DNA of 64,000 bases from Arcanobacterium bovis (GTDB taxonomy: Bacteria; Actinomycetota; Actinomycetes; Actinomycetales; Actinomycetaceae), in the NCBI RefSeq assembly GCF_004331995.1, contig NZ_SJDT01000002.1, positions 62,001 through 126,000 on the forward strand, given 5' to 3'. Both the position numbers and the translations under genes were made by a program. Under the pieces are notes generated by a model. It was not told the origin of the DNA. It saw only the letters and a list, made by a program, of their open reading frames with translations, and did not search any database. Shown here piece by piece: positions 48,235-49,528 of the stretch; positions within the stretch are counted from its first letter, which is position 1; every line of letters starts with the position of its first letter.

Positions 48235-48265
48235 GTCGGGCTTGCAGTTTTGCAAGTCCGACTTT
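48235..48265 (+). terminator. Hairpin terminator after tRNA-Met
   Basis: GTCGGGCTTGCA pairs with TGCAAGTCCGAC (12 bp, one G-T) around GTTT, followed by TTT. It lies seven bases after the tRNA. Confidence 0.75.
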
Positions 48266-48473
48266 GCATATCCGTGTGAGAGAAGATCACGTTGCAGATA
48301 CGCCGGTGGTGAGGCTTTGTATCGCTATAAAAGCTGGCGTTGTGCCGAATTTTAGGCTTTTAATCCATAGTTTTGACGTCTTGAACTGGTTTATAAATTC
48401 GCAAATTTATACTCATGTAAATATTAAATAAAAATAAAGAAAGTCAAATGTTGTGGTGCTAATGTTACCAATA
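48266..48473 (+). other. Gene-free, AT-rich stretch
   Basis: I see no credible gene. TATACT at 48408-48413 is a possible -10 element with no good -35, and could drive the structured element downstream. The segment 48415-48445 is very AT-rich. After that element, 48591-48732 is likewise without a gene. Confidence 0.5.
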
Positions 48474-48590
48474 ACGGAACGCATTGAAATGGGATCTTGA
48501 AACGGTGGATGACCGACCACAGTTTCTTGTTCTTTGAGTCGTGGCGAAGGAACTCAAGATTTATCCCGTCGGGATGCGTTCCGTCTTTTT
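48474..48590 (+). ncRNA. Candidate structured small RNA ending in an intrinsic terminator
   Basis: A perfect 11-bp outer stem joins 48474-48484 to 48574-48584 and is followed at once by C and five T residues. Inside it, GGGAT/ATCCC and CTTGA/TCAAG (48491-48500 with 48554-48567, 4-base bulge) form a second stem. The interior has two further hairpins: CGGT/ACCG at 48503-48515, and GTTCTTT/AAGGAAC at 48529-48553 with one G-T pair. The order of nested pairings in a gene-free region suggests a folded transcript. No known RNA family is recognised. Confidence 0.5.
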
Positions 48591-48732
48591 GTGCTCGCAT
48601 AAGTGCTGAGCGGTACGGATATCTAAGCTGAGTGATTCGGGTACCTAAAGGTTTCGCGGTTTGGCTGTGGCGTAGTCGCTTTCGAGCCACTAGGCTGTGG
48701 GTAGATTTGTTTTGACTGAAAGAGCGGTATAA

Positions 48733-49023
48733 ATGAGCGAAACGAATAATCCTTTAGAGCCTGGGATGGGGTCGCATATTGATGCGGCTGGCACCACTTC
48801 GCAGAGCCAACGTGGTGGTTTGGCTCCAGAAGACCTTGCGAAACTCAAGAAAGCCCAGCGGAGGAATATTGTTATTGCCCTGATATTGGGCCTAATACTC
48901 GCTGTCAGTGGATACTTTGCGGGTCAAAAATTGCGTGAGAGTCGATCACAGTCGTCGGCAGCAAACGTAAGTGTGGTTATTGCTGATGGTGAGGAGAGGG
49001 CAGTAAATGGTGTTCGGATTTAA
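48733..49023 (+). CDS. Small single-pass membrane protein, unknown function
   Basis: 96 residues with a polar N-terminus, one hydrophobic helix near residues 46-64 (NIVIALILGLILAVSGYFAG) and a short polar tail. Not recognised. AAAGAG lies about eight bases before the ATG. Its 3' end overlaps the next gene by 17 bases, so the two are probably coexpressed. Confidence 0.6.
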   Translation: MSETNNPLEPGMGSHIDAAGTTSQSQRGGLAPEDLAKLKKAQRRNIVIALILGLILAVSGYFAGQKLRESRSQSSAANVSVVIADGEERAVNGVRI

Positions 49024-49528
49024 TAAAAGTGTTGACCGCCAGGTGTTGGACCTGTGTAGGGAAGTGGGGGTTAAACCTACCGCAAGCAGCGAAGTAGTTT
49101 ACGACGGCGGAAAACGTTGGCTTGCGACGTCGTCCACAATGCTCGTAGTGCTTACGCAAGACGACGGTGTGCGTCCGGGGGAAACGCAACTTATTGAGTG
49201 GGCAGATTTTGCTCAAGCTGGATGGGATGAACAAGAACGGCTTTTGACATTAAAGTTTATCGATCCGGCATTGCCTGCCCTGCAGTTTGAGTTGTTCGAA
49301 GACTATAGCGAGAATTTCGTGACGGCGATTCGGGAGCGCGTCGACCGTTCGATTGTGTATCAACAGTTTGTGGAGTTGAGCTCGGGTGTGATTGCTCGCG
49401 GGCAAGTGCGGAGAAATGCCGATGAAACGCTCTTCACCCAGATTCTTGTTGATGGGGATGTTGAAGCACGAGATCGAGAAATTCTGGCAAATTTGGACAT
49501 TGAATTGCGAGAAGCTGTGGGGCTTTGA
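49007..49528 (+). CDS. Conserved-looking cytosolic protein, unknown function
   Basis: 173 residues, no signal peptide or membrane helix. A mixed alpha/beta composition with many charged residues and segments such as LATSSTMLVVLTQDDG and LIEWADFAQAGWDEQERLLTLKF suggests a folded protein, possibly a PH-like beta fold. I do not recognise a named family. It overlaps the preceding membrane-protein gene, whose product may be its partner. Confidence 0.65.
   Translation: MVFGFNKSVDRQVLDLCREVGVKPTASSEVVYDGGKRWLATSSTMLVVLTQDDGVRPGETQLIEWADFAQAGWDEQERLLTLKFIDPALPALQFELFEDYSENFVTAIRERVDRSIVYQQFVELSSGVIARGQVRRNADETLFTQILVDGDVEARDREILANLDIELREAVGL

Follow-up and report, generated by a model that had tools for sequence, protein, structure and literature searches.

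One question raised by the region downstream of tRNA-Met in Arcanobacterium bovis is whether it hosts a structured RNA gene and, if so, whether this RNA works on its own or belongs to the genes that follow it. We have analysed a window of 64,000 nucleotides from this genome (contig NZ_SJDT01000002.1), and all coordinates below are those of the window. The gene order at the locus is a ferredoxin-like gene, tRNA-Met, the RNA, a 96-aa putative membrane protein, a 173-aa protein, tRNA-Asn and peptide deformylase. In a protein search of named genomes the same order is found in A. ihumii. The genes of the 96-aa and 173-aa proteins (48733-49528) overlap by a few codons. The first encodes a single-helix membrane protein; the second is kept across much of the family, reaching into the order, and its product matched no Pfam or NCBIfam family. 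The tRNA-Met gene has a terminator-like hairpin of its own at 48235-48267 (GTCGGGCTTGCAGTTTTGCAAGTCCGAC, followed by TTTG), and so by default the tRNA transcript does not include the RNA.

We find that a structured small RNA of about 112-118 nucleotides is encoded at 48474-48591 on the plus strand, as an earlier, sequence-only reading of the locus had proposed. The evidence is the fold, homologues at the same site and compensatory changes between them.

Fold and conservation of the RNA

The RNA consists of an outer stem, an internal loop and an inner stem, beyond which two hairpins arise from a junction. The outer stem pairs ACGGAACGCAT (48474-48484) with ATGCGTTCCGT (48574-48584) in 11 perfect base pairs, and C48585 and T48586-48590 follow directly, exactly as had been read from the sequence. 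The inner stem pairs ATGGGAT (48489-48495) with ATCCCGT (48563-48569), seven base pairs with one G-U. This stem had previously been described as 10 bp long and bulged; the stem itself stands but has no bulge of its own, and an internal loop lies between the inner and outer stems. The two interior hairpins are both present. Hairpin 1 spans 48499-48526, with its loop ATGACCGA at 48509-48516 (loop sequence AUGACCGA), and hairpin 2 spans 48534-48557, with its loop TCGTGGCGAAGGAA at 48539-48552 (loop sequence UCGUGGCGAAGGAA).

The 118-nucleotide core folds with -44.1 kcal/mol, compared with -31.5 +/- 3.2 for dinucleotide shuffles (z -3.9), and none of the 200 shuffles is equally good. The sequence-only reading had started the RNA at 48408; this wider span (48408-48590) gives a z of only -2.3, and the start lies instead at about 48472-48474.

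Three clear copies and one diverged copy of the RNA are known. A DNA search of relatives identified a homologue at the same locus in genome G009, with 79% identity over the RNA. A third copy was found by inspection of the same locus in A. ihumii, and was recovered with 115 bits by the covariance model (G008). Between the window and G009 the identity is 75-82% over 48470-48589, against 25-62% in the remaining intergenic bins. Folded independently, the three sequences arrive at one common architecture, with the G009 copy beating 200 of 200 dinucleotide shuffles and the G008 copy 199 of 200.

We aligned the three clear members with MAFFT, which is blind to structure, for the analysis of covariation. 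Standard pairs occupy 95.8% of the pair cells in this alignment, against 35-45% when the arms are slid, a large contrast despite there being just three sequences. RNAalifold recovers the same helices by itself. Compensatory changes in the four stems, which the sequence-only reading had named as possible support, do occur between these same-site homologues: 11 of the 32 pairs have changed on both sides, and all four main helices are represented (one pair in the outer stem, four in the inner stem, four in hairpin 1 and two in hairpin 2). The outcomes that this reading had named as refuting, a missing homologous region or stems broken without compensation, were checked in these relatives and did not arise. 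The observed covariation is reached by no shuffle, although three sequences do not permit a formal probability. Among the relatives the outer stem shows one two-sided change from A-U to G-C and three one-sided changes involving G-U, and the hairpin 2 stem TTGAG/CTCAA has become CCGGG/CTCGG in G008. The loops are conserved in the clear homologues while their stems vary. ACCGA in the loop of hairpin 1 is unchanged in all three, and hairpin 2 carries a conserved UGGCRAAGG.

The fourth copy, in genome G004, is more diverged. This is a 92-nucleotide RNA whose outer stem is 16 bp long; it has two hairpins, a U-rich tail and an extended -10 element, and its fold has a z of about -7. The hairpin loops are UACCGGA and AAAAGGGGAG. 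It precedes the same two genes, but its upstream neighbours differ and tRNA-Met is absent. The copy is too diverged for a genome-wide model match, and a model built from it (R2) matched G004 only; its kinship with the other three therefore rests on position, architecture and promoter.

Strand, promoter and ends

The inverted structure can be folded on both strands. Ten G-U cells on the plus strand would turn into A-C mismatches if the RNA were read from the minus strand, which fixes the plus strand as that of the RNA. The model scores the G009 copy at 134 bits on this strand and at 9 bits on the opposite one, and the U-run and a promoter-like element are also found on the plus strand.

The promoter-like element is an extended -10, TGC-TAATGT (TGCTAATGT, 48457-48465). 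In the four genomes the element reads TGCTAATGT, TGATAGTCT, TGCTAACCT and TGCTATAGT, located 8, 8, 9 and 8 nucleotides before the stem. All four copies fit TGnTAnnnT, that is, TGn together with three key positions of the -10 hexamer. Given this conservation and the fixed spacing of 8-9 nucleotides, TGCTAATGT is the likely promoter, and the spacing would put the start at the first paired base or 1-3 nucleotides before it. The -35 region is weak, with no recognisable hexamer upstream of the extended -10, and a generic scan for sigma-70 promoters did not report 48457-48465. For these reasons the promoter is one that we infer, on good grounds. The TATACT hexamer at 48408-48413, taken earlier as a hint of a promoter, is about 60 nucleotides too far upstream to serve as the -10.

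At the other end, the 3′ arm of the outer stem together with C-T5 (48574-48590) forms an intrinsic terminator, a GC-bearing stem with a U-rich tail behind it, and this arrangement recurs in 4 of 4 genomes. That the RNA is transcribed, where precisely it begins and ends and how it acts are matters that we infer from features of this kind.

Two further blocks flank the RNA. An AT-rich block (TCATGTAAATATTAAATAAAAATAA, 48410-48440) can be recognised in the window as well as in G009 and G008, and is a possible UP element or regulator site. Between the RNA terminator and the 96-aa gene lies the block TTTGGCTGTGGCRTAGT-GCTTT (48656-48680), common to the window and G009 and partly to G008. It may be a promoter or operator of the gene pair.

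Known families and distribution

The RNA matches no known family. At the gathering cut-off of Rfam 15 it is unmatched in the window, G009, G008 and G004, and at a lax threshold (E up to 10) the window yields tRNAs and the mraW RNA only. The latter (RF01746, 10803-10897) lies upstream of the cell-wall gene cluster and scores barely over its gathering cut-off.

Some established RNAs resemble the locus RNA in part. The small bacterial SRP RNA (RF00169) is of similar size, but the locus RNA has no match to the family model. The sequence-only reading could not match the locus to SRP RNA, tmRNA, RNase P or 6C RNA; the SRP RNA of this genome is located on another contig (G000:C1:364388-364483), and no Rfam family is found at the locus. 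The 6C RNA (RF01066) is an actinobacterial sRNA, likewise small, with two hairpins; the locus RNA lacks its C-rich loops and does not match its model, and a search with that model found no copy of 6C RNA in the genome. In 6S RNA (RF00013) the 5′ and 3′ ends are paired in a closing stem, as they are here. However, 6S RNA is a single long hairpin opened by a large bubble at its centre, whereas the locus RNA has four helices, with two hairpins on a junction. There is also a resemblance to the stand-alone intergenic sRNA genes of bacteria, which have a promoter-like element, a compact fold, an intrinsic terminator and exposed conserved loops in common with the locus RNA. The locus RNA differs from these in that its terminator stem closes the entire molecule, and in having no match to a known family. 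The RNA represents a new, lineage-restricted family within an established kind and not a new kind of system. Our literature searches brought up no work on small RNAs in Arcanobacterium or Trueperella.

The pair of 96-aa and 173-aa genes is widespread in the family, yet five further members of the genus have the pair and lack the RNA at this site. When we scanned upstream of the 173-aa gene for long terminator-like stems in 30 genomes, the layout was found in the same four only. A covariance search of 200 family genomes confirmed no copy outside the genus. It returned one match outside the genus at an E-value of 0.94 (G028). Another match (26.8 bits, G196) was rejected because it is antisense to a long ORF that encloses it and its fold does not surpass those of shuffled sequences (z 0.03). 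An order-wide search of 396 genomes, a set that partly overlaps with the 200, recovered three members, all from the genus. Filters were tighter in these large searches, which may have overlooked diverged copies. An exact DNA scan of viral contigs gave no match to the RNA. In G001 the corresponding intergenic stretch (L035, 880-950) holds a direct repeat, GTGCGCAATCGCGCGGAGCG, and no RNA. On this genomic sampling, the RNA appears to be restricted to part of one actinobacterial genus.

Mode of action

How might such an RNA work? RNA polymerase would start from the extended -10, right where the 5′ arm of the outer stem begins (about 48472-48474), and would stop at the U-run 3′ of that stem, releasing a compact RNA of about 112-118 nucleotides with both ends base-paired. 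The parts left exposed and conserved would be the two hairpin loops, ACCGA and the purine-rich UGGCRAAGGA, one or both of which may pair with pyrimidine-rich segments of mRNAs, most likely independently of Hfq. Paired ends, a terminator and conserved loops on changing stems are the pattern of a stand-alone RNA that acts through its loops. We therefore consider it fairly probable that the locus is an sRNA gene that stands alone, is restricted to the genus and has a promoter and a terminator of its own, and that the loops of the RNA most likely pair with mRNA without Hfq. Hfq was not detected in the genome of the window, in searches whose controls respond. A search for exact complements of the hairpin 2 loop found no site in the mRNA of any recognisable gene: in G009 it returned the RNA gene itself only, and in the genome of the window three other matches, all antisense to larger ORFs.

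The chief rival, owing to the constant downstream neighbour, is that the RNA is a cis-acting leader, the 5′ UTR of the 96-aa/173-aa pair, with the outer stem as a conditional terminator of an attenuator or riboswitch-like device. In 4 of 4 genomes the RNA does precede this gene pair and shares its strand, the link survives in G004 despite the different upstream neighbourhood, and two conserved loops around a junction recall leaders that bind ligands or proteins. Nevertheless, the terminator is the very stem that closes the structure as a whole, and by eye we saw no conserved antiterminator: the competing hairpin of the window (ATCCCGTCGGGAT) is absent from G009. The five genomes that keep the gene pair without the RNA also speak against a leader. 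In addition, about 140 nucleotides separate the terminator from the start codon of the 96-aa gene in the window, and the conserved block in this gap could be the pair's own promoter. Taken together, we regard a leader as rather unlikely. It is improbable, too, that this is a new class of ligand- or protein-sensing RNA in Arcanobacterium, in which the loops would form the binding site and the closing stem a regulated terminator of the conserved, uncharacterised membrane-protein operon.

An RNA that sequesters a protein or is directed to the ribosome is a very unlikely reading. Here the partner of the purine-rich, Shine-Dalgarno-like hairpin 2 loop and of ACCGA would be a protein or the 16S rRNA 3′ end in place of mRNAs. 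The paired ends and compact shape would suit this, as would the loop motifs AAGGA (window and G009), AAAGG (G008) and GGGGAG (G004), the last of them kept even though the remaining hairpin 2 loop differs. Short purine motifs are frequent by chance, however, and there is no known protein partner, no 6S RNA layout and no Rfam family match.

That no functional RNA exists here, and the fold is due to chance or is a remnant element, would accord with the narrow distribution, but it is hard to believe in view of the compensatory changes, the peak of conservation and the conserved loops and promoter. Least credible of all is a gene for a small protein that begins in hairpin 2, with the fold as a secondary matter: although UGGCRAAGG can be read as a start codon (AUG/GUG) followed by Ala-Lys, the frames are 22, 57 and 9 aa long in the window, G009 and G008, are conserved beyond the first residues only between the two closest species, have no visible ribosome-binding site and, in the window, cross the terminator, while the substitutions track base pairs. 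Frames are not conserved in the antisense ORF reading either, and we rejected it together with the small ORF.

In summary, the locus provides a defined RNA gene with predicted ends, a fold, a predicted promoter and relatives, which is open to direct probing. The copies can serve as the seed of a covariance model for a family that is missing from Rfam. Arcanobacterium is an actinobacterial genus with animal and human pathogens; should the RNA act in trans, the genus would have in it a regulator that does not depend on Hfq.
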